Assembly: GCA_014075295.1 (NCBI GenBank)
Contig: CP046180.1
Span: forward strand, 1,018,458 to 1,082,457
DNA: 64,000 bases
Reading direction: 5' to 3'
Source of the DNA: Candidatus Mycalebacterium zealandia
GTDB lineage: Bacteria; Desulfobacterota_D; UBA1144; Nemesobacterales; Mycalebacteriaceae
The position numbers and the translations under genes are program-made. Of this stretch, positions 6,922 to 21,510 are shown in pieces; position 1 is the first letter of the stretch; each line of letters opens with the position of its first letter. The notes under the pieces were generated by a model, which saw only the letters and a list, made by a program, of their open reading frames with translations, was not told where the DNA came from and did no database searches.

Positions 6922-9006
6922 CTAAACATTCTCCGCGGTCGCTCTGAGTTCTTCAACAATATTCTTTGGAAGAACCTCGTAACAGGAAAACTCCATTGTG
7001 AAGGAACCCCTTCCCTCAGTCATCGACCTTAGCTCGGTAGCATATCCGAATACTTCGCCAAGGGGAACATCAGATTTAATAGCCTGCATCGCACCACGCA
7101 TCTCCGTACTTACTATTTTTCCCCTTCTGGAATTCAAATCACCTATGATGTTCCCCGTAAAATCCTCTGGCGCGACAACCTCAAGACTCATAACCGGTTC
7201 AAGGATTGACGGAGAAGCCTTGGAAAAACCGTCTTTGAAAGCCATTGAGCCCGCGATTTTGAAAGCGATTTCAGACGAATCAACCTCGTGGAATGAGCCA
7301 TCGTAAAGAGTAACACGCACATCCACGACCGGATAGCCCAAAACAATGCCGGTTTCCATAACTTCACGAATGCCCTTCTCCACGGCGGGAACATACTCTC
7401 TGGGTATCGCACCGCCCTTGATTTGGTCAACAAACTCAAAGCCCTCGCCCCTTTCAAGAGGGTCAACCTTGATTTTCACATGCCCGTATTGCCCGCGTCC
7501 GCCCGTCTGCCTTATGAATTTGGCTTCAACATCCGATGACCCCAGAATGGTTTCCCTGTAAGCGACCTGCGGTTTGCCCACGCTTGAGTCCACGTTAAAC
7601 TCCCTTGAAAGCCGGTCAACAATAACCTCAAGGTGAAGCTCTCCCATTCCCGATATGACAGTCTGCCCCGTCTCCTCATCGCTTTTAACTCTGAAAGACG
7701 GGTCTTCAAGCGCAAGACGGGAGAGGGAAATTCCGAGTTTTTCCTGATCGGGCTTGGATTTGGGCTCAATCGCAATGGAGATAACCGGGTCGGATATGTT
7801 CAAACTTTCAAGAACAATGGGCTTGTTCAGATCGCAAAGAGTGTCGCCCGTTACGGAGGTTTTCAGCCCCACCGCGGCAACAATTCCTCCCGCGTCTATC
7901 TCCTTGATTTCCTCTCTTTTGTTGGCATGCATTCTCACCAGACGCCCGATTTTTTCTTTCTTATCCTTTGTGGAATTGAGCACGGTGCTGCCGGAAACAA
8001 GTTTTCCGGAATAAACCCTTATATATGTAAGCTGTCCGACAAACGGGTCGTTCATAATCTTGAAAGCGAGCCCTGAGAAAGGCGCGTCCGGGTCGGAAAC
8101 CCTTGAGTCTTCGGAGCCGTCTTCTTTTGTGCCGGAAATCGGGGGAAGGTCAACCGGAGACGGAAGATAGTCAACAACGGCGTCAAGCAGAAGTTGAACC
8201 CCTTTGTTTTTGAAAGCGGAACCGCAAAAAACCGGAATGATTTTAAGCGCGGTGGTCTGTTCTCTTATGACCTTTTTCACAGTGGCCATGTCCACTTCCT
8301 CATCGCTTAGGTACGCCTCCATTATTGAGTCGTCAAAATCTGCCAGCGCTTCAAGCAACTGCTTGCGACCGGCGGTGAACTGCTCCTGATAATCTTCGGG
8401 AATATCCTGCAACTCAAACTTGGCGCCCAAAGATTCACCGTCCCAAACCGCGAGTTTGCAGGAAACAAGGTCAACTATGCCCTTGAATTCCTCACCTTCA
8501 AACCAGGGAATATGCATATAGACGGGACGCGCGTTAAGACGCTCTTCAACCTGTTTGACAACCTTGAAGAAATCCGCGCCGATTCTATCCATTTTGTTTA
8601 CAAAACAGATTCTCGGAACCCCGTAACGGTCCGCCTGTCTCCAGACGGTTTCAGTCTGCGGCTCAACGCCGCCAACGCAGTCAAACACAACAACCGCGCC
8701 GTCAAGCACCTTGAGCGAACGCTCAACCTCAATGGTGAAGTCAACATGGCCCGGGGTGTCAACAATGTTAATTCTGTGGTCGTCCCAGAAACAGGTGGTG
8801 GTCGCCGAAGTGATTGTTATTCCGCGCTCCCTCTCCTGCTCCATCCAGTCCATAGTGGCGGTTCCTTCGTGAACCTCGCCAATTTTGTAGGTCAGACCCG
8901 TGTAGAAAAGAATGCGCTCGGTGGTTGTGGTTTTGCCGGCGTCAATATGGGCTACAATCCCTATATTGCGCACCTTGTCCATGGGGACTTTGATTTCTTC
9001 CGCCAT
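6922..9006 (-). CDS. fusA: Translation elongation factor G
   Basis: 694 residues, full length. EF-G drives translocation and, with RRF, recycling. The G domain shows [19 protein letters not shown] (15-33), DTPGHVDF (about 85-92) and NKMD (about 139-142). Domain IV holds [13 protein letters not shown] and the tip loop. There is no sign of the second, spdG-like paralogue. It sits between rpsG and tuf as in the classical str operon. Confidence 0.97.
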
Positions 9007-9021
9007 TGCTCGTCCCCGTGA

Positions 9022-9495
9022 TTACCATCTGTAATGGGCAAAAGCTCTGTTGGCTTCCGCCATTTTGTGGGTGTCTTCCCTCTTTTTGATTGCGGTTCCC
9101 CGATTTTGTGAGGCGTCCAGAATTTCCAAAGCAAGTTTTTCGCGCACACCGTGCTCGGTTCTTTTGCGCGCGGCATCAAGCAACCAGCGGATTGCCAGAT
9201 AGTTTCTGCGGACGGGTTTAACTTCCATAGGAACCTGATAGGTGGCTCCGCCGACCCGTCTTGACCTGACTTCAAGAGACGGCTTGATGTTTTCCATAGC
9301 AGAGAAGAAAACCTTTATAGGCTCTTTTGTGTTCGCCTTTTCGGAAAGCAAATCAAGAACACCGTAAAAAATCTGCTCCGCTTTGCTTTTTTTGCCGTCC
9401 AGCATAAGAGAATTGAGAAACTTCGCGACAAAAACATCTCCGAAGCGCGGGTCGGACTCAACTCTGATTTTTGCTGATGAACTCTTTCTGACCAT
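9022..9495 (-). CDS. rpsG: 30S ribosomal protein S7 (uS7)
   Basis: 157 residues from [20 protein letters not shown]. An upstream in-frame ATG (9561) would extend it into rpsL and is rejected. S7 nucleates the 30S head and lines the E site. [20 protein letters not shown] and the [11 protein letters not shown] motif are family signatures, and the C-terminal helix ends [15 protein letters not shown]. It follows rpsL after 10 bases. Confidence 0.97.
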
Positions 9496-12352: not shown

Positions 12353-14197
12353 TCAAACAGTCTCCATAATCGTTCTTCTTTTTTCCAAATCCGCGCCGAC
12401 CACGCGCAGTTTCAGTTCGTCTCCGAGGTTGAACCACTTTCTGCGTCCGCCGCGTTTCATTCTCTCGCGCGGGACAAAACCCTCGGCGCAAATCTCCTTC
12501 AGTTCAAGAAACATTCCGAACGGCAGAATACTGATTACCTTGCCGGTAAATTTCCTGCCCGTGAGGGTTTTCATAAAGTTCGCGGTTTCAAGTCCGACGG
12601 TTTCCCGTTCGGCTTTTTCAGCTTTCCTCTCAAGCACCGAAGCCATCTCGCACAAATTGTCAAGTGGGCCGCGTGCGTATCCGCTACGCCCTTTGCAACT
12701 GAGCCGGTCAACCATTCTGTGCGCGATGATGTCGGGATAACGCCTGATGGGCGAGGTGAAATGCGAATATCTTTCAATTCCGAGCCCGAAATGCCCGACT
12801 TCGCGCGTTGAATAAACCGCCCTCTGAAGCGATTTAAGAACCATCATTTTTACCGCGCCTTCCTGTTTTTTGTCCCTGAAATCGGCGAGCAATTTCTGAA
12901 TTGCCTTGCCCGCCAAACGCCGCTCAATGCTCGCTTTGTAACCTAGTTTCCCAAGTTCGGCGGAAAGGTCCGAAAGCGATTCAGAGGTCGGCGGCTCATG
13001 AACTCTGTAAACCCCCCACCCCTCGCCATCGCAAAGCCGCGAACCGACGGCCCTGTTTGCCGCTATCATAAACTGCTCAATAATCATGTTCGCAACACCT
13101 CGCTGAGCATTTCGCACGTCCTGCACCACACCAAGTGAATTCCTTACAAGTTCGGGCTCGGGCAGGTCAAAATCAAGTTCACCGCCCTCAAGACTGCGTT
13201 TTTTCATTTTGCCGTAAAGATTTTTCATCATACTCAAACTTTCTTTGATTTCCGGCGACAGTTTCGCGCCCTTTCCATCTTCAAGAAAAGCGGTTACCTG
13301 AGAATAGGTAAGACGCGCCGCGCTTTTGATGATGCTGTTGTAAATGTGAAAGTCCTCAAGCGTGCCGTCACGTGAAAACTCCATCTCAACAGTTTTTGTG
13401 AGACGGCCTTTGTTCGGAACAAGACTGCACAAATCGTTTGAAAGAGCTTCGGGAAGCATAGGTATGACGCGGGTGTCAAGATAGACGCTTGTGCCGCGCT
13501 TGAGCGCCTCTACGTCAAGGGGGCTTCCCTCCTTAACATAGTGGGAAACGTCCGCGATGCAGACCCACAAAGTGAATCCTGAACCCCGTTTTACAATGCC
13601 GACCGCGTCATCGTAGTCTTTGGCGTCGTCACCGTCTATCGTGAAAATGGTTTTCTTTCTGAGGTCAACCCTGCCATCGGCCGAATCAGACGGACGCCGT
13701 CTGCTCAACTCCCCGGCGTGCTTCAAAACCGTTTCGGGAAACTTGCCGGGAAGGGAATGTTTGTATTCAATAGCCTTTTTCTCGGTCTCAAACTCGCCCG
13801 CCCGTCCAATTATTTTTTCCACGCTTGCCACCGGAACAGCCTCTTTGCCACCGCTGGGGCGGGTGCCCGCATATCTAACTATCGCGAGATAGCCGTTTCT
13901 GAGTTTCGGCGCGCCGTCCTTTTTGCCGGAAACAAGGGCGTATTGAAAGTCCTCGCCTCTGGGAATAAGAACCACACCTCCTTCGGGTCCGGCAACGGCT
14001 TTGGCAAGAAAGGTTTCCGGAATCTGCCCGGGTTTTTTCGCCGCAGGTTTTGCCTTGCGTACGGACGGACGCCCGTTGCCGGGTTTGCGGCGCTTGGGGC
14101 GTTTTGTCAGCAATTTTTTATCCGGCGCGGAAAAGTTATGGAATTCAGGAAAGTCGCAAGCGCTCCTGAAATTGAAAAGATGCGCATCGGGGAACAT
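12353..14197 (-). CDS. rnr: RNase R / RNase II family 3'-5' exoribonuclease
   Basis: 614 residues as read from ATG 14197, short beside RNase R (about 700-810). It degrades structured RNA processively from 3' ends. The RNB catalytic centre has TIDGDDAKDYDDAVGI (about 207-222), with the cluster of metal-binding aspartates. An S1 domain closes the protein (KFTGKVISILPFGMFLEL, ending 11 residues after it). The N-terminal half shows one reduced OB-like region and a basic stretch (KRPKRRKPGNGRPSVRKAKP) instead of the usual two cold-shock domains and winged helix. The start is doubtful: a -10-like TACAAT overlaps ATG 14197, so a downstream TTG (near 14113) may be the real start. Confidence 0.85.
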   Translation of the reverse strand: MFPDAHLFNFRSACDFPEFHNFSAPDKKLLTKRPKRRKPGNGRPSVRKAKPAAKKPGQIPETFLAKAVAGPEGGVVLIPRGEDFQYALVSGKKDGAPKLRNGYLAIVRYAGTRPSGGKEAVPVASVEKIIGRAGEFETEKKAIEYKHSLPGKFPETVLKHAGELSRRRPSDSADGRVDLRKKTIFTIDGDDAKDYDDAVGIVKRGSGFTLWVCIADVSHYVKEGSPLDVEALKRGTSVYLDTRVIPMLPEALSNDLCSLVPNKGRLTKTVEMEFSRDGTLEDFHIYNSIIKSAARLTYSQVTAFLEDGKGAKLSPEIKESLSMMKNLYGKMKKRSLEGGELDFDLPEPELVRNSLGVVQDVRNAQRGVANMIIEQFMIAANRAVGSRLCDGEGWGVYRVHEPPTSESLSDLSAELGKLGYKASIERRLAGKAIQKLLADFRDKKQEGAVKMMVLKSLQRAVYSTREVGHFGLGIERYSHFTSPIRRYPDIIAHRMVDRLSCKGRSGYARGPLDNLCEMASVLERKAEKAERETVGLETANFMKTLTGRKFTGKVISILPFGMFLELKEICAEGFVPRERMKRGGRRKWFNLGDELKLRVVGADLEKRRTIMETV

Positions 14198-14493: not shown

Positions 14494-15888
14494 CTAACTC
14501 ACTATTCGCGGAGTGATAAAGAGAATGAGTTCTCTTTCCACCGTTTGCCTTTTTGAGCTTTTGAATATGGAGCCGAGAAGCGGAATTGATGACAAAACCG
14601 GCACTTTGGAACTGCTTTTGCTTGTGGTTGTGGTTGTGGTAACTATTCCGCCGAGCACTATCGTCTCGCCGTCTTCGGCAAGAACTCTGGTTTTCGCCTC
14701 ATTCCGCCTGATTGAGGGTTGCGAACCAACTGCAAAAGTCGCGTCCGGAGAGTTATCCGTGATGGAAATATCCATAAAGATATTGCCGTCATTTGTGATT
14801 TTCGGCTTAACCTCAAGGCTTAAAGTGGCGTCCGCAAATTCGGTTTTGGTGCCCTGTTCGGACACAGTTGAAAACGGAATTGAGATTCCTTGCTCTATTC
14901 TTGCCACCGAATTGTCAACGGTGATGATTTTTGGAGAGGAAAGTATTTTCACCTTGCCTTTGTCTTCAAGCGCGGACAGGCGGATATCAAGGTCAAAAGT
15001 GCCCGCCAGATTTCCAAGAACAACCCCGAGCACCCCTCCGCTTCCCGTGCCGACCGCGGCGGGCATATCAACAATGAAACCGTCATCAACATTGCCAAAA
15101 GCAGTGTCTATCCGCGTTCTGCCAACTTGTATGCTTGCCGGAAATCGCGCGCCGGTGTTCTTGCTTGTGTAACGTGTTCCCCATTGAATTCCGAGTTCCC
15201 TTGAAAAGTCCGTGCCCGCCTGCACGATTCTTGACTCAATAAGTATTTTCGGCGTGGGCTTGTCCAGCGACTTTACGATTCCGCCAATCCGGGCAATATT
15301 GAGCCGCGTTTCAAGAACGGCAAGACTGTTGGTTCTTTCATCAACCGAGATCCTGCCTTGTTTTGTAAGAAAAGGTTTGATGCCCGTCGCTATGTCGCGC
15401 GCCGTTGCGTAATTCACAAAAAACTGTTTGGACACGAGTTTTTCCGTTTTCTCAACAAGTTGCGCCGTGTCAGACGCCTCTCTGCGCCTTTTGCTTATGT
15501 TTTCAAGCGATGAAATCTTGACGACATTGCCCTCGACAAAAGCGCCCAAACCGTTCTCGGCAAGCACAATGGAAAGTACCTGATCCCAGGGAACATCACG
15601 CAGCTCCATATAAACAGTTCCACTCACATCGCCCGTGATGATAATGTTGAAGCCGCCAATTTGCGCTATCTGCATTATCACCTCGCGCGTGTCCGCACCT
15701 TTGTATATAAAAGTGCCTTTCCCACCCCTGTAAACCGGTTCGTCCGCACCGAAAGAGGAATAGCGGAAGTCAAACGCCCACGCCACATCGCTGTCCGGAG
15801 CGTTTTGCGCGGCGGACAATGCGGGCGCGCAGAAAACAAAAACCGCACACACAATACAGAAACTGATAAATTCCTTAGCGACTCTCAT
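14494..15888 (-). CDS. pilQ: Short PilQ-like secretin
   Basis: 464 residues, much shorter than PilQ of typical type IV pilus systems (about 650-900). A signal peptide ends near residue 26 (FCAPALSAAQ). An STN/N0 domain follows (FIYKGADTREVIMQIAQIGG, then DVPWDQVLSIVLAENGL), then one N1-type domain (FVNYATARDIATGIKPFL) and the secretin barrel with VKILSSPKIITVDN, ARIEQGISIPF and the closing VPVLSSIPLLGSIF...LILFITPRIV. No AMIN (peptidoglycan-binding) domain precedes N0. It should form an outer-membrane ring. Its ATG overlaps the upstream gene's stop by four bases. GspD-like assignment is the alternative, but the N0 and C-terminal motifs are PilQ-type. Confidence 0.85.
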   Translation of the reverse strand: MRVAKEFISFCIVCAVFVFCAPALSAAQNAPDSDVAWAFDFRYSSFGADEPVYRGGKGTFIYKGADTREVIMQIAQIGGFNIIITGDVSGTVYMELRDVPWDQVLSIVLAENGLGAFVEGNVVKISSLENISKRRREASDTAQLVEKTEKLVSKQFFVNYATARDIATGIKPFLTKQGRISVDERTNSLAVLETRLNIARIGGIVKSLDKPTPKILIESRIVQAGTDFSRELGIQWGTRYTSKNTGARFPASIQVGRTRIDTAFGNVDDGFIVDMPAAVGTGSGGVLGVVLGNLAGTFDLDIRLSALEDKGKVKILSSPKIITVDNSVARIEQGISIPFSTVSEQGTKTEFADATLSLEVKPKITNDGNIFMDISITDNSPDATFAVGSQPSIRRNEAKTRVLAEDGETIVLGGIVTTTTTTSKSSSKVPVLSSIPLLGSIFKSSKRQTVERELILFITPRIVS

Positions 15889-16298
15889 TTTCCAAATGGG
15901 ACAAACACCGTTTTTAAATCCCTCTCGGCGGAAACCCCATCCTCTTTTACTTTGGCGATTTTGAAACCGAATGCGGTCTGTCCGGGTTCAACCCAGAGCG
16001 TGCGGCCGCCAGAAACCAGCATGGCGAAATTCCGGTCGGCAAATTTTACAAAGCCCGCCACTTTGAGCGGAAACTTTCCTGGTGAGACGCGTTTGGCCTC
16101 TGCGGGCTTTTTATGCGGAGAGGAAAAAGTTTTGACGGCTGAGGTTGCCGGGCCCGGTCCTGAAAATTCGCGGACGGTTTCACCGGACCCGCTCTTCAGA
16201 TACGAAAAAGGCAACACCGCACACACGCAAAGCGCGACAACAACGGCGGCTCGCAGTTTGCGGGACTGATCCGGCTTTATGAGATTAACCTTTATCAT
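15885..16298 (-). CDS. Bitopic membrane protein with PilN-like N-terminal tail and PilP/GspC-like periplasmic domain
   Basis: 137 residues. It begins MIKVNLIKP, very like the cytoplasmic tail of PilN (consensus near MIxINLLP), the segment known to bind PilM. One membrane helix follows (AAVVVALCVCAVLPFSYL, about 17-34), then a Pro/Ser-rich linker (about 35-72). A C-terminal domain (FPLKVAGFVKFADRNFAMLV to VEPGQTAFGFKIAKVKEDGV) looks like the PilP/GspC homology region that touches the secretin. It lies between pilM and pilQ with four-base overlaps on both sides, and no separate pilN, pilO or pilP is present. I infer a fused connector from PilM to the secretin. Confidence 0.6.
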   Translation of the reverse strand: MIKVNLIKPDQSRKLRAAVVVALCVCAVLPFSYLKSGSGETVREFSGPGPATSAVKTFSSPHKKPAEAKRVSPGKFPLKVAGFVKFADRNFAMLVSGGRTLWVEPGQTAFGFKIAKVKEDGVSAERDLKTVFVPFGK

Positions 16299-17377
16299 GC
16301 GGCTTTCTTCATCATTCTGAGAGCTAGCCCGAACGCGACCGCGGATTTCGCGCTCAAACCTTCAGGGAAACCGTTTCCACTCCGCCCCGCCAGCAGAGGG
16401 TCCGCGTATTCGGCATCCACTCCAAGTGTTTCGGCGACCTTTTCCCGCAAACCATACAGCAGGGAACCTCCGCCTGAAAGAACAACTTTTCCGAGGTTAT
16501 CATTTCCGCAATCGCAGAACATCTCAAGGTTGGATTTCACTTCGTGCAGTATAGACAATGAAAAATCGGCGGCGGCGGAAAGAAACTCGCGTCTTGAAAC
16601 CGCGCCGAGAGATATTTTTTCCGCTTCCGCCTCATCAACTGTAAGGTCTCCCGCGCGCGCGATTTTAAGCGTGAGTTCGCCCGAAGCGGTGGAAAGATCC
16701 CTGGTGAAAACCGTTTTCCCGTCTTTCAAAACAGCGAGGTTTGTTACGCTGTGCCCAATGTTGAGCAAAACCGTGAGCCCTTCCGGAGAGCTAACGCGGC
16801 GGTTGTATGAGTTGATAATCGCAAAGCCGTCATAGTCCAAAACTTCGGGAACAAATCCCGAAGAACGCAGAGCGGAAACATAATCGCGGACGGCGTCTTC
16901 TCTGGCAACCGCGACAAGAACATCTTCGGGGCTTTGCGGATGTCGATAGAAACTGTGGCGGCAGCCGTCCAATCCTTCGGGAAAGAACTTGCTTAAATGA
17001 AGCAAAACCGCGTCTTCGGCAGCTCCGGAATCCGCCGAAAGCGGAATCTTTAGTTTGCTTGTAAAAACCGCGCAACCCGAAACACCAACCGCCGTGCGCG
17101 CGCCTTTGAGTTCAAAATCATCGCGCAAGGAAAGCAATCCCGAACATAAGGAATCAAAATTCTCTATTTCCTTGTCTTTGAAAACACCGGAATCCTGAAG
17201 AGATTCGCGTGCGTGAAGGGGAAAATCCGTTTCGCTCCCGGAAGCGTTGTTGAGAACCACAACTTTGGTGGAATAAGACCCTATATCAATGCCGACCGCG
17301 TTCCTGTTCCGGAAAAATCCGGCTGAAAAATCTTTGATTGAACAGTCAAATATTCTGTTCCGAAAAAGAGTCCTCAT
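16295..17377 (-). CDS. pilM: PilM-like actin-fold cytoplasmic protein
   Basis: 360 residues from ATG 17377, four bases after the preceding stop; a longer reading to 17473 runs inside the upstream gene. PilM is an FtsA-like ATP-binding protein that binds the PilN tail below the inner membrane. The phosphate-1 motif is GIDIGSYSTKVVVL (about 30-43), and the later nucleotide loops are LLNIGHSVTNLAVL and VVLSGGGSLLYGLREK. Segment HLSKFFPEGLDG matches the PilM region with QYIPF. It is the central gene of the operon. FtsA or a type II GspL cytoplasmic domain are less likely, because the neighbours are pilus-type. Confidence 0.82.
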   Translation of the reverse strand: MRTLFRNRIFDCSIKDFSAGFFRNRNAVGIDIGSYSTKVVVLNNASGSETDFPLHARESLQDSGVFKDKEIENFDSLCSGLLSLRDDFELKGARTAVGVSGCAVFTSKLKIPLSADSGAAEDAVLLHLSKFFPEGLDGCRHSFYRHPQSPEDVLVAVAREDAVRDYVSALRSSGFVPEVLDYDGFAIINSYNRRVSSPEGLTVLLNIGHSVTNLAVLKDGKTVFTRDLSTASGELTLKIARAGDLTVDEAEAEKISLGAVSRREFLSAAADFSLSILHEVKSNLEMFCDCGNDNLGKVVLSGGGSLLYGLREKVAETLGVDAEYADPLLAGRSGNGFPEGLSAKSAVAFGLALRMMKKAA

Positions 17378-17381
17378 TCTA

Positions 17382-18158
17382 TTAACTGTTTCGTGAAATA
17401 AATCTTGAAAGCGAAATAACTTTCTTTGAGCCGGTTTTTTCGGCGTCTTTGGAATCTTCCGCCGCCGTCTCAATTATTTTCGGCTCCTCGGGGCAATCAT
17501 CAATAATTTCTTCCAAAATTTTGCGCATAACCTTCAGCGCGCCGACCGAGTGCTGTTTCATGTAGGGCTTCGCGTAGTGCTTGTCTATAATCTCTTTCTG
17601 CCTTTTTGTGGCAAAGTAATGCAGAATGAAAACCTGATTGTTCAATACAACAAGAAGCGCGATATATAGAAGAAGGTTGTCTTTCAAAACCTGTTTCATA
17701 ATCAGCGTTTTTGAGGAGTTTATAGTAACAACTCCGTAGGGATTACCGTCCGTGCCCACAAGAAACGGCGCGGAAACGGTAAACACGCCACCTTTATCGC
17801 GAACGCCGTATCCCCTTTCCTCCGAATACAACTGTCTGGTCTGACGCCCCTGAAAATTCTCCTTTGTGAAAGCAACATCAAACGAAGACGGAACAACATT
17901 GAAGGTTTTAAAAACTCCGGCGGACCCGTGCTTGGTTCTGAGGAAGGAGTAAAACTCCGCGCTTGTCGGGTTGATGTTGTGAACGGCAAACTCGGCCGCC
18001 TCGTTTCCTATTAATTCGGAAGTGGCAACAGTTTTTGTGATAACGTCAGATTTCGCGCTACTGAACTGGCTGTAGAAAACCGCGCCGACAAGAAACAAAA
18101 TCGCGGCTTCTATAAAAAGAACTTTGTAAAAAAGCCCGAGACGTCCAATCAAGCGCAT
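17382..18158 (-). CDS. Two-segment membrane protein with periplasmic sensor-like domain, unknown
   Basis: 258 residues. The first membrane helix is about 12-32 (VLFIEAAILFLVGAVFYSQF), the second about 162-183 (LLLYIALLVVLNNQVFILHY). Between them a periplasmic domain of about 130 residues has the alpha/beta look of a single Cache sensor (SAPFLVGTDGNPYGVVTINS near its end). The cytoplasmic tail of about 75 residues is charged, without a kinase, HAMP or cyclase signature. It overlaps the XRE regulator by 10 bases and is followed four bases later by pilM. I do not recognise the family. A signal-input role for the secretin operon is inference. Confidence 0.7.
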   Translation of the reverse strand: MRLIGRLGLFYKVLFIEAAILFLVGAVFYSQFSSAKSDVITKTVATSELIGNEAAEFAVHNINPTSAEFYSFLRTKHGSAGVFKTFNVVPSSFDVAFTKENFQGRQTRQLYSEERGYGVRDKGGVFTVSAPFLVGTDGNPYGVVTINSSKTLIMKQVLKDNLLLYIALLVVLNNQVFILHYFATKRQKEIIDKHYAKPYMKQHSVGALKVMRKILEEIIDDCPEEPKIIETAAEDSKDAEKTGSKKVISLSRFISRNS

Positions 18159-18562
18159 TTAAGAAATTCTTCAAGTATCTTTCTAGCTTCAGTGTTCTGA
18201 TAATGTTTGAACAGCATAAATATCATGCCGTTGAAGTCCTTTTTTACCTCATCGTCAAGAACCCTGTATAACTTCACCAGATACCTCTCCTCGTCAGTCA
18301 AAATTTCAAACTCTTTTTCGCCAATCAACTCTTTTTCAAGAAATTTATGCAGTTTTTCGCGACGGGAAAGATTCCATATCTCCTCCACGCTCACACGAAG
18401 ACATTGCGCAATCTGGTGGCACCTCTCATGAGAAGGAGAATCCGCTTTTCCGGTTTCAAGCTGGTGGATATAAACCTTTGAAACATCAAGATAGCGCGCA
18501 AGCACGCCTTGAGTTATTCCCCTTTGCTTGCGCTTTGCTTTTAAATAGTCACCAAAAGTCAT
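18149..18562 (-). CDS. XRE-family transcriptional regulator
   Basis: 137 residues. An N-terminal Cro/CI-type helix-turn-helix spans residues 3-60 (YLKAKRKQRGITQGVLARYL, then VSKVYIHQLETGKADSPS). The C-terminal half (about 65-137) is helical and acidic and carries no known sensor motif. It overlaps the sensor-like gene, so it is the first gene of the pilM-secretin operon and probably controls it. The upstream region (18563-18663) has TTGACA near 18648-18643 and an imperfect inverted repeat GGAATAGAAATCTGTTCC around 18641-18658 that could be its operator. Confidence 0.85.
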   Translation of the reverse strand: MTFGDYLKAKRKQRGITQGVLARYLDVSKVYIHQLETGKADSPSHERCHQIAQCLRVSVEEIWNLSRREKLHKFLEKELIGEKEFEILTDEERYLVKLYRVLDDEVKKDFNGMIFMLFKHYQNTEARKILEEFLKCA

Positions 18563-18817: not shown

Positions 18818-20143
18818 CTATATTGAATAGAGCAACTGAAAAAGCAACCCGTGCTGGTCTTTCTTGTCGCCGCTGTCGCTCGGAAAGTAGTGGACATCCG
18901 CTCTGTCCCAACGGTATTCAAAACGGGTTTCAAGGGTTCCCTTGTCGCCACCGTCTCCAAACGGCTTCCAACCCACTGTCGGCGTCAACTCAAACAGTTT
19001 CACGCCGTTGCCGTCCGTATCAGAGTCGTCAACATATTCCGCTCTCAATGAAAGTGTTGTGCCCTTATTCGCCTCATAAATCAGATAACCGCCAACGCCC
19101 CAACGGAAGAAATCGTTGTAAGCAACACCCGTGGGTCCTATAAAGGTAGTTTCCGTAGTATCCGCTGTTCGCGGGTCGTCTCCGGTAATGGTTTCCAAAA
19201 CGGGTTCGGCAAGACCATCGCCCACCCATGTGAATTCCACATCACCGACAAATGTGAGTTTGCCCGAAGTCATGCTTCCGACAAGCGTCAAAAGCGTGCG
19301 CGTTTTGTTGTCGGAGGGGTTCGCGGACACCATACTAGTAGAAGCGTCAGACATTTCATAGGCCGTAAAATCCGCCAGAGAGCCGTCATCGTCTCTTGCA
19401 AAAGCTTTACTCTCAAGAAAATCGCTTTTCCCCACATAAAGAGTCGCGCCGAGCCAGAGGTCGTTTATAAATCCAGTTTCGGACCCGTGCGAATACGCCG
19501 TCTGAAACTCAAAGGTTTTGCCATCATCATTATCGTCAACTGCGTCCCAGTCGTTGCTTATGCCAAAGGTCAAATCAACGCCGGACGCGCTGTAAGACGC
19601 TCTGGCGCCCGAATGAGCAAACGGGATTCTGTAAAACAGAAGCGAACGGCTGATGTTTGTGTTGTTTTTCGCCTCTATGAGTTCCCAGCCCGCAAGCGTT
19701 GTGAACTGCCCCGCGATTATGCTGAAATTCTCCGAAGGGGCAATGCTGATGTATGCCTGATAAGGACTTACCGCACCGTCTCCGTCCGAATTGAATCCGA
19801 ACCCGAGACGCTCCGCCTGTTCTCCGAAAAGGATGTCCGCCCTGAAACCGACCTTGTCCATCGGAGACGCGCCAGTCGCGTCCGCCTCTTTTTCAAGCGA
19901 CAGCGTGAAGGAGTCTATTGAGAAGTCGTTGTGTTCGGGATAAAGCCCTCTTTCCCCGGGGCAACCCGCCACAGTCTCATTGTCGCAGTTGAAAACATAC
20001 TGGTATGTCGTGTCAAGAGACGCGCCCACATTCACCATGCCAATAAAAGTTGACACTGGAATATCCGCTTTTGCCACCGCCGCAGAAAACTGCAGAACAA
20101 CCGCAACCGCGAAAATACTTAAAAACCTGTTAAAAACTTTCAT
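18818..20143 (-). CDS. Outer-membrane beta-barrel porin, BBP2 (OmpL-like) family
   Basis: 442 residues from ATG 20143 (AGGGGG five bases upstream; ATGs at 20146 and 20173 fit the ribosome binding site less well). A signal peptide ends near residue 26 (AAVAKA/DIPV). The segment IIAGQFTTLAGWELIEAKNN followed by NISRSLLFYRIPFAHSGARA is typical of the putative beta-barrel porin-2 family. Alternating strands run to the C-terminal LLFQLLYSI. It would let small solutes across the outer membrane. It lies 30 bases after amtB, so it may serve ammonium or small nitrogen compounds, which is inference from context. Confidence 0.8.
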   Translation of the reverse strand: MKVFNRFLSIFAVAVVLQFSAAVAKADIPVSTFIGMVNVGASLDTTYQYVFNCDNETVAGCPGERGLYPEHNDFSIDSFTLSLEKEADATGASPMDKVGFRADILFGEQAERLGFGFNSDGDGAVSPYQAYISIAPSENFSIIAGQFTTLAGWELIEAKNNTNISRSLLFYRIPFAHSGARASYSASGVDLTFGISNDWDAVDDNDDGKTFEFQTAYSHGSETGFINDLWLGATLYVGKSDFLESKAFARDDDGSLADFTAYEMSDASTSMVSANPSDNKTRTLLTLVGSMTSGKLTFVGDVEFTWVGDGLAEPVLETITGDDPRTADTTETTFIGPTGVAYNDFFRWGVGGYLIYEANKGTTLSLRAEYVDDSDTDGNGVKLFELTPTVGWKPFGDGGDKGTLETRFEYRWDRADVHYFPSDSGDKKDQHGLLFQLLYSI

Positions 20144-20172
20144 CATATCCCCCTTAAGGTCTAAAAATTGCA

Positions 20173-21510
20173 TTATTTAATTTTATACGCTTCCATTCCG
20201 TGCTCGCCGACATCAAGTCCGATGTATTCTTCCTCTTCGGAAACACGAAGCCCGAATATCGCTTTTATAAGATAGAAAAGCACGAAAGCGCTAACCGCGC
20301 AGAAAATCGCGAACGCTCCGATGCCGATAAGCTGTTTGCCGACTGTGTGCTCGGGATTTGAACTGAAAATCCCAACCGCGAGCGTCCCCCAGATTCCGCA
20401 AGTCAAGTGAACGGAAATCGCTCCGACCGGATCATCGATGGTCAATTTGTCTATAAAGAGAACCGAGAGAACAACCAAAACACCGGCAACCAAACCTACA
20501 AGCACGGAATTCCCCGGACTTATGACGTCGGCGCCTGCGGTTATTCCGACAAGACCCGCGAGAGAGCCATTAAGAATCATTGAAAGGTCGGGCTTTTTGT
20601 TGATAATCCAGGCCGCCGCCATCGCGCCGCAAATTCCCGCCGCCGCGGCAAGCGAAGTGGTTACAAACACAAGCGAAACCAGACCCGGGTCGGCGGAAAG
20701 AACCGAGCCGCCGTTAAATCCATACCATCCGAACCAGAGCAGAAAAACCCCGATTGTGGCAAGCGGCAAACTATGCCCCGGAAGAACCTTGACTTTTCCA
20801 CCGGCCGAATACCTGCCTTTACGTGCGCCGAGAAGAATCGCGCCCGCAAGTGCTCCCCACCCGCCAACGCTGTGAACTATCGTTGAACCGGCAAAGTCGT
20901 AAAAACCAAGCGCGTCAAGCCACCCGCCGCCCCACTTCCATGAACCGGCGACCGGATATACAAAAGCGACATAAACCGTGGCAAAAATAAGAAAACTTCC
21001 GAGTTTAATTCTCTCCGCAACCGCGCCCGAAACTATGGTCGCGGCGGTGGCGGCGAACATCGCCTGAAAAATAAAGTCGGAAAAATACGTGTAACTGCCA
21101 TCCGCATATCCTATAAGACCGGCAACCCCTTCCGGGGAGGAAATTCCAAATCCGGCAAACCCGAAGTAGCCCGCCGCGCCCTCGGCAAATCCCGGATACA
21201 TAAGATTGAACCCGCAAAGCGCGTAAGTGAGAATTCCTATAGCAATAATTGAAACATTTTTGAAAAGTATGTTGACGGTGTTTTTTGATCTTGTGAGCCC
21301 GCTTTCAAGACACGCAAACCCCAGATGCATTATAAAAACAAGAATTGCCGCCAGAAGAATCCACAGGTTATTAACAGTGAACATTTCAGGGCTCACATTG
21401 GCGGCGTAGGCGGAAGTTGTTGATAACAGCAGAGCACCCGCGAAGAACAGAAGCGTTCTTGAAATTCCCAAATCTACGTCCGCACGCCCACGGAATTTTT
21501 CATAAAACAA
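20173..21510 (-). CDS. amtB: Ammonium transporter, Amt family
   Basis: 445 residues with 11 predicted membrane helices after an N-terminal signal-like helix (LLFFAGALLLSTTSAYAA). Family signatures are clear: GFACLESGLTRSKN near the start, DFAGSTIVHSVGGWGALAGA with one pore histidine, and the second pore histidine in ISVHLTCGIWGTLAVG. It conducts ammonium into the cell and is closed by PII binding. glnK lies 42 bases upstream, the classical pairing, and the porin follows. Confidence 0.95.
   Translation of the reverse strand: MFYEKFRGRADVDLGISRTLLFFAGALLLSTTSAYAANVSPEMFTVNNLWILLAAILVFIMHLGFACLESGLTRSKNTVNILFKNVSIIAIGILTYALCGFNLMYPGFAEGAAGYFGFAGFGISSPEGVAGLIGYADGSYTYFSDFIFQAMFAATAATIVSGAVAERIKLGSFLIFATVYVAFVYPVAGSWKWGGGWLDALGFYDFAGSTIVHSVGGWGALAGAILLGARKGRYSAGGKVKVLPGHSLPLATIGVFLLWFGWYGFNGGSVLSADPGLVSLVFVTTSLAAAAGICGAMAAAWIINKKPDLSMILNGSLAGLVGITAGADVISPGNSVLVGLVAGVLVVLSVLFIDKLTIDDPVGAISVHLTCGIWGTLAVGIFSSNPEHTVGKQLIGIGAFAIFCAVSAFVLFYLIKAIFGLRVSEEEEYIGLDVGEHGMEAYKIK

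Follow-up and report, generated by a model that had tools for sequence, protein, structure and literature searches.

A probable PilN–PilP fusion between PilM and PilQ at a reduced type IV pilus locus of Candidatus Mycalebacterium zealandia

If a pilus locus encodes PilM and a secretin and yet holds no separate gene for PilN, PilO or PilP, what could bridge the two membranes? The question is raised by five intact genes on the minus strand, at positions 14494–18562 of the window (the whole 64,000-nucleotide stretch of DNA analyzed, to which all coordinates lacking a contig label refer), encoding an XRE-family regulator, a membrane sensor-like protein, PilM, a 137-residue protein and a secretin. 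The initial annotation had described them as one tight unit and its measurements are confirmed throughout: the XRE and sensor genes overlap by 10 bases, 4 bases separate the sensor stop from PilM, and the gene of the small protein overlaps by 4 bases both with that of PilM and with that of the secretin. The source organism has a small genome and belongs to the uncultured Candidatus Dadabacteria group. Its genome (G000), a single contig of 1,162,547 bases that is 96.7% complete, was compared within a set of 58 genomes of the class, among which G001 is the only other member of the genus and is called here the congener; the genus and family labels of the relatives (g1–g22 and f1–f8) are arbitrary codes.

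The two outer partners of the putative bridge can be identified from their profiles. PilM (16295–17377, minus strand) matches Pfam PilM_2 with 131 bits (8.6e-38), is the only PilM of the source genome and is ~28–32% identical to the PilM proteins of the order; its reading frame is open up to a TTG at 17473, and the in-frame ATG at 17377 yields a protein of 360 amino acids and the exact 4-base gap. The secretin (14494–15888, minus strand; 464 amino acids) matches Pfam Secretin (154 bits, 4e-45), Secretin_N and STN, and scores 367 bits with the NCBIfam model IV_pilus_PilQ, above the cut-off of 284, the HofQ model being the second-best NCBIfam match and the GspD model remaining below its own cut-off. 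By BLAST it is 48–53% identical to the PilQ proteins of the order, as opposed to 26–29% with their GspD. It consists of N0, one N1 and the secretin pore, whereas the PilQ proteins of the relatives (604–820 amino acids) also carry an AMIN domain; the secretin is therefore a true PilQ that has lost its AMIN domain. Neither a second secretin nor a second pilM was found in the source genome, and separate pilN, pilO and pilP genes were likewise not found.

The 137-residue protein between PilM and PilQ

The small protein, hereafter the hybrid, is encoded at 15885–16298 of the minus strand, directly between pilM and pilQ, i.e., in the slot that pilN, pilO and pilP occupy in the relatives. It has no match in Pfam or NCBIfam and is laid out as a PilN-like tail (residues 1–13), a transmembrane helix (~14–34), a flexible linker (~35–74) and a PilP/GspC homology-region (HR) domain (75–137). 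Plain HMM searches of the hybrids with the PilP and PilN profiles of the order were not significant (E 2.9 for the congener hybrid, and 0.24), so that the case for its identity is built on profile comparison, fold, start motif and position.

As to the tail, the source hybrid begins with MIKVNLI and that of the congener with MIEINLI; by hhalign, residues 1–13 align with residues 1–13 of PilN (E 8.5e-5; profile of 20 PilN of the order), and a screen of 990 different ORFs found the motif near the start of 20 PilN, of the two hybrids and of one unrelated ORF, attributed to chance. The conserved N-terminal tail of PilN is precisely the element that PilM is seen to grip in crystal structures (PMC5805733; binding also in PMC4471445). 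At the other end of the protein, residues 78–126 align with the homology region of PilP (E 0.0047, 27% identity over 49 columns; hhalign against 18 PilP of the order). The AlphaFold model, built from only two sequences, reaches a pLDDT of ~90 over residues 81–120 and 80–87 from there to the end, with six strands in the domain and low confidence in the tail and linker. Compared with the PDB by Foldseek, the domain retrieves PilP or GspC/PulC homology regions at ranks 1 through 8, with a TM-score of 0.82 to the GspC-HR 3oss; the E-values start at only 0.002 because the model is small.

A PilN-type tail joined to an end having the PilP fold indicates that PilN and PilP have been reduced and fused in one protein, a reading that we hold to be very probable. 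In light of this, the premise that the operon has no PilN, PilO or PilP genes holds for separate genes, while parts of PilN and PilP survive inside the hybrid; similarly, the product had rightly been called bitopic, having one membrane helix, yet this term misses both its PilN tail and its PilP homology region. The presence of the latter implies that the PilP function is not missing. No homologue of the hybrid was found elsewhere in the class, and nothing relevant to PilN–PilP fusions or to Dadabacteria pili was found in the literature searched, which lacked most subscription journals.

The rest of the machine and the parts not found

The initial annotation envisaged a minimal envelope-spanning complex built from three structural proteins. 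PilM, a single linker and the secretin do indeed make up such a unit, but a search of the genome located PilB, PilC, PilD and pilins as well, at four other loci, so that the machine is larger than its base. A PilB–PilC pair lies at L009 8818–11574, a PilA-like pilin at L016 7253–7903, a gene for the prepilin peptidase PilD is present, and the genes of PilV, PilW, PilX and FimT stand in a row (in L015 of the source and in L018 of the congener). The FimT-like gene of the source (L015 4960–5483; G000:376960–377483) is frameshifted at a run of six A, due to either a sequencing error or a real break, its counterpart in the congener being intact. In both genomes metG and the minor pilin genes are adjoined by genes for very long, repetitive, secreted-looking proteins of 1639 and >1850 amino acids (L015 8445–13364 and L018 55–5616).

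Could these components belong to a type II secretion system or to another secretin device, with the 137-residue protein acting as its GspC? The hybrid has the topology of GspC, namely a short tail, one helix, a flexible arm and an HR domain that would contact the N0 of the secretin, and among complete folds it matches that of GspC-HR most closely; furthermore, the GspE model gives the ATPase of the congener a slightly better score, and a tree of the ATPases places the source PilB beside GspE (support 86/98), albeit with a possible long-branch attraction. On the other hand, the hybrid has neither PDZ nor coiled coil, its tail is PilN-like and its partners are PilM and PilQ instead of GspD. Besides the PilQ scores given above, comparison with the paralogues of the same order by BLAST gives 44–47% identity of PilB to PilB as opposed to 38–41% to GspE, and ~36% of PilC to PilC as opposed to ~30% to GspF. 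The operon has a separate PilM and not a GspL, the minor pilins are of the PilV/PilW/PilX/FimT type, and the genome has one PilQ-type secretin and one PilB-type ATPase, no gspG-H-I-J-K or other gsp cluster being seen at the pil loci. The secretion reading is thus highly improbable and was rejected on the PilQ, PilB and PilC comparisons, notwithstanding the position of the long-branched ATPase in the tree. Of the two possibilities left side by side at the outset, a reduced type IV pilus base or another secretin device, it is the former that prevails.

The kinship with the type IVa pilus of Pseudomonas aeruginosa, Neisseria and the Dadabacteria relatives, in which PilM, PilN, PilO and PilP work with PilQ, extends to orthologous PilM, PilQ, PilB, PilC, PilD and pilins, to the PilN start motif and the PilP HR fold, and to a chromosomal place that is the same as that of the pilMNOPQ genes of the relatives. 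The source differs in having PilN and PilP elements in one 137-residue protein, a PilQ deprived of AMIN and no PilT, and in that PilO and the periplasmic domain of PilN were not found. Indeed, Pfam PilO detects no protein in either genome of the genus while 21 relatives score above the cut-off, and the order-specific PilN and PilP profiles, each of which finds 21 relatives, detect no separate PilN or PilP in these same two genomes; overall, PilN, PilO and PilP are present in 21 of the 58 genomes of the class. What is left of PilN is the N-terminal motif of the hybrid. The source genome has a single PF00437 ATPase, where the relatives have PilB, PilT and GspE (the PilT-bearing ones serving as positives), and hence has neither PilT nor GspE. 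The statements on PilN, PilO and PilP refer to the two genomes available for the genus, that on the ATPases to the source genome.

It could be objected that PilN and PilO, or functional stand-ins for them, are encoded elsewhere in the genome, having diverged past recognition, and that the alignment complex is complete. The profiles that find no PilN, PilO or PilP in these genomes also miss the hybrid, which escapes Pfam and the PilP profile of the order and so reveals how fast small membrane proteins of this kind change in this lineage; a PilO that had diverged to the same extent could therefore escape too, and the assembly may lack 3.3% of the genome. Nevertheless, no unexplained small bitopic gene is seen beside pilM, pilB–pilC, the minor pilins, pilA or pilD, the operon overlaps too tightly to leave room for one, and the two genomes of the genus agree, so that a hidden PilN/PilO pair appears unlikely.

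History of the locus

The five genes recur in identical order in the congener (L010 946–4901), with 42–73% amino-acid identity and a larger number of changes in third codon positions, so that the arrangement is not due to chance. Recurrence ends with the genus: relatives outside it carry pilM-N-O-P-Q at this place, from which it follows that the five-gene arrangement is derived. Most families of the order have genes for XRE, sensor and a small lipoprotein followed by pilM-N-O-P-Q, with rnr nearby. An RNase R-like gene and genes for porin-like and ammonium transporter proteins flank the source locus (12353–14197 and 18818–21510), and since several other families of the order share these flanking genes, the whole neighborhood must be old.

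The first two genes of the unit had been taken for a regulator and a sensor belonging to the pilus itself. The XRE protein (18149–18562, minus strand; 137 amino acids) matches Pfam HTH_3 with 43 bits (3.4e-11) and is 73% identical to that of the congener and 55–56% to a homologue in G019. The second protein (17382–18158, minus strand; 258 amino acids) has no Pfam or NCBIfam match; its AlphaFold model displays two helices and a periplasmic PDC/Cache-like domain, with no kinase domain, and its best Foldseek matches, all of them weak, are extracellular domains of WalK, CpxA and chemoreceptors. A contig profile search with the sensor of the source genus returned no matches; the same type of search with an order-wide XRE alignment yielded 37 related loci, and each of the Dadabacteria XRE loci includes a homologue of the sensor. 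The locus of genera g6 and g9 lacks pilN, pilO, pilP and pilQ, searches of their genomes yielded no PilN, PilO or PilP protein, and an orphan pilM stands beside the XRE–sensor–lipoprotein trio in 19 of their 21 genomes; in the distant loci L097–L100 (about 7990–9455) the trio is kept with no PilM within the flanks. The pair being retained where pilNOPQ or pilM is gone, it is a feature of the neighborhood rather than of the pilus, and the idea of a dedicated regulator and sensor is rejected in favor of a general Dadabacteria module that may regulate PilM or other genes.

The module also occurs without PilM at L096 1255–2477 and L101 1253–1621, two deltaproteobacterial contigs in which the XRE gene adjoins a divergent GspC-like gene. 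The orphan PilM proteins (e.g., L040 8357–9442, L041 8263–9270, L042 8014–9051 and L043 8391–9425) persist in genomes where PilN, PilO and PilP are not found, and no PilB/PilT pair was seen among the orphan-PilM genomes searched. One genome with an orphan PilM, G006, has a gspC-D-E-F-G-H-I-J-K cluster (L017 6498–16104) with no adjacent gspL or gspM, and it is our guess that there PilM might stand in for GspL.

The orphan PilM of the other Dadabacteria genera devoid of PilNOPQ lends some credit to the idea that the source locus is a remnant on its way to the loss seen in these sister genera, with pilNOPQ going first and pilM next, and the frameshifted FimT, the small genome and the lack of PilT could be read in the same sense. 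Decay, on the other hand, hardly accounts for five intact genes accompanied by intact pilB, pilC, pilD, pilV, pilW, pilX and pilA, nor for a PilQ that is still ~50% identical to its full-length relatives, and the congener homologues are intact as well, at 40–70% identity and with the third-position excess. Decay is improbable, and the source genus appears to have taken a path separate from that of its sister genera, namely fusion instead of loss.

Proposed mechanism and its meaning

The locus is most reasonably, and with good probability, interpreted as the base of a reduced type IVa pilus capable only of extension, in which the ancestral pilM-N-O-P-Q set has collapsed to a fusion. Starting from the ancestral operon, loss of pilO, of the periplasmic part of PilN and of the front part of PilP would have left a single protein whose cytoplasmic tail, judging from its motif, is held in PilM, whose one helix would span the inner membrane and whose flexible arm would cross the periplasm, allowing the PilP domain, as its fold suggests, to dock on the N0 ring of PilQ. 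The homology region of PilP is known to bind the N0 of the secretin (PMC4471445), and the PilM of Thermus binds its pilus ATPase (PMC6325625); here PilM may likewise bind the single PilB and relay its action. PilB and PilC would polymerize the pilin, and the fiber would be made by PilD, the PilA-like pilin and PilV/PilW/PilX/FimT, all encoded elsewhere. Lacking the periplasmic domains of PilN and PilO, the machine would form no cage around the growing fiber, which, for want of PilT, probably extends only, or else retracts slowly with no dedicated motor. Of this picture, the genes present, their orthology and the PilP-domain fold are established, the contacts and the lack of powered retraction being putative.

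The role of PilN and PilO, fiber assembly or just alignment and retraction, is disputed, for the double mutants of Neisseria and Pseudomonas disagree (PMC4471445). According to Takhar 2013, as cited in PMC4471445, low piliation of P. aeruginosa survives the loss of PilM, PilN, PilO or PilP once PilT is gone (e.g., in pilN/T and pilO/T double mutants), and Leighton 2015, to which PMC5805733 refers, links PilNO with retraction in its title; taken together, these indications fit the joint loss of PilNO and PilT. In N. meningitidis, by contrast, PilMNOP are reported to be required for assembly even without PilT (PMC4471445). That a type IV filament works here without the ferredoxin-like domain of PilN and PilO, the hybrid tying PilM to PilQ, and that this became possible once PilT was given up, is a proposition for which we see the balance as even.

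Concerning the task of the pilus, a gene for the ComEC channel is present in the source genome (288619–289467 of G000) and in the congener. Its retention alongside the pilus genes makes DNA uptake the leading, if still tentative, candidate. ComEC occurs in 19 of the 21 PilN-bearing genomes, in both genomes of the source genus, in five of the seven of g9 and in none of the 28 of g6 and f8; the five of g9 possess it without PilN, PilO, PilP or PilQ, so that ComEC alone is no proof of a DNA-uptake pilus. A similar coupling of the ATPase through PilM to a PilN-type tail, and a similar proposed task, characterize the Thermus DNA translocator, consisting of PilMNO and the ATPase PilF, which however keeps full PilN and PilO. 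The compact competence operons hofMNOPQ and comABCDE resemble the source locus in beginning with PilM and in having a short secretin; unlike it, they encode the N, O and P proteins separately.

PilO, the periplasmic domain of PilN and PilT having been dropped together, with PilM, the PilP domain, PilQ, PilB, PilC and the pilins retained, this lineage offers a natural test of the dispute over PilN and PilO. A bridge of four proteins between the membranes has shrunk to a fusion and PilM, apparently the smallest alignment bridge yet observed. With a linker of 137 residues, the whole bridge should be easy to reconstitute, and nature may already have tested the need for PilN and PilO.
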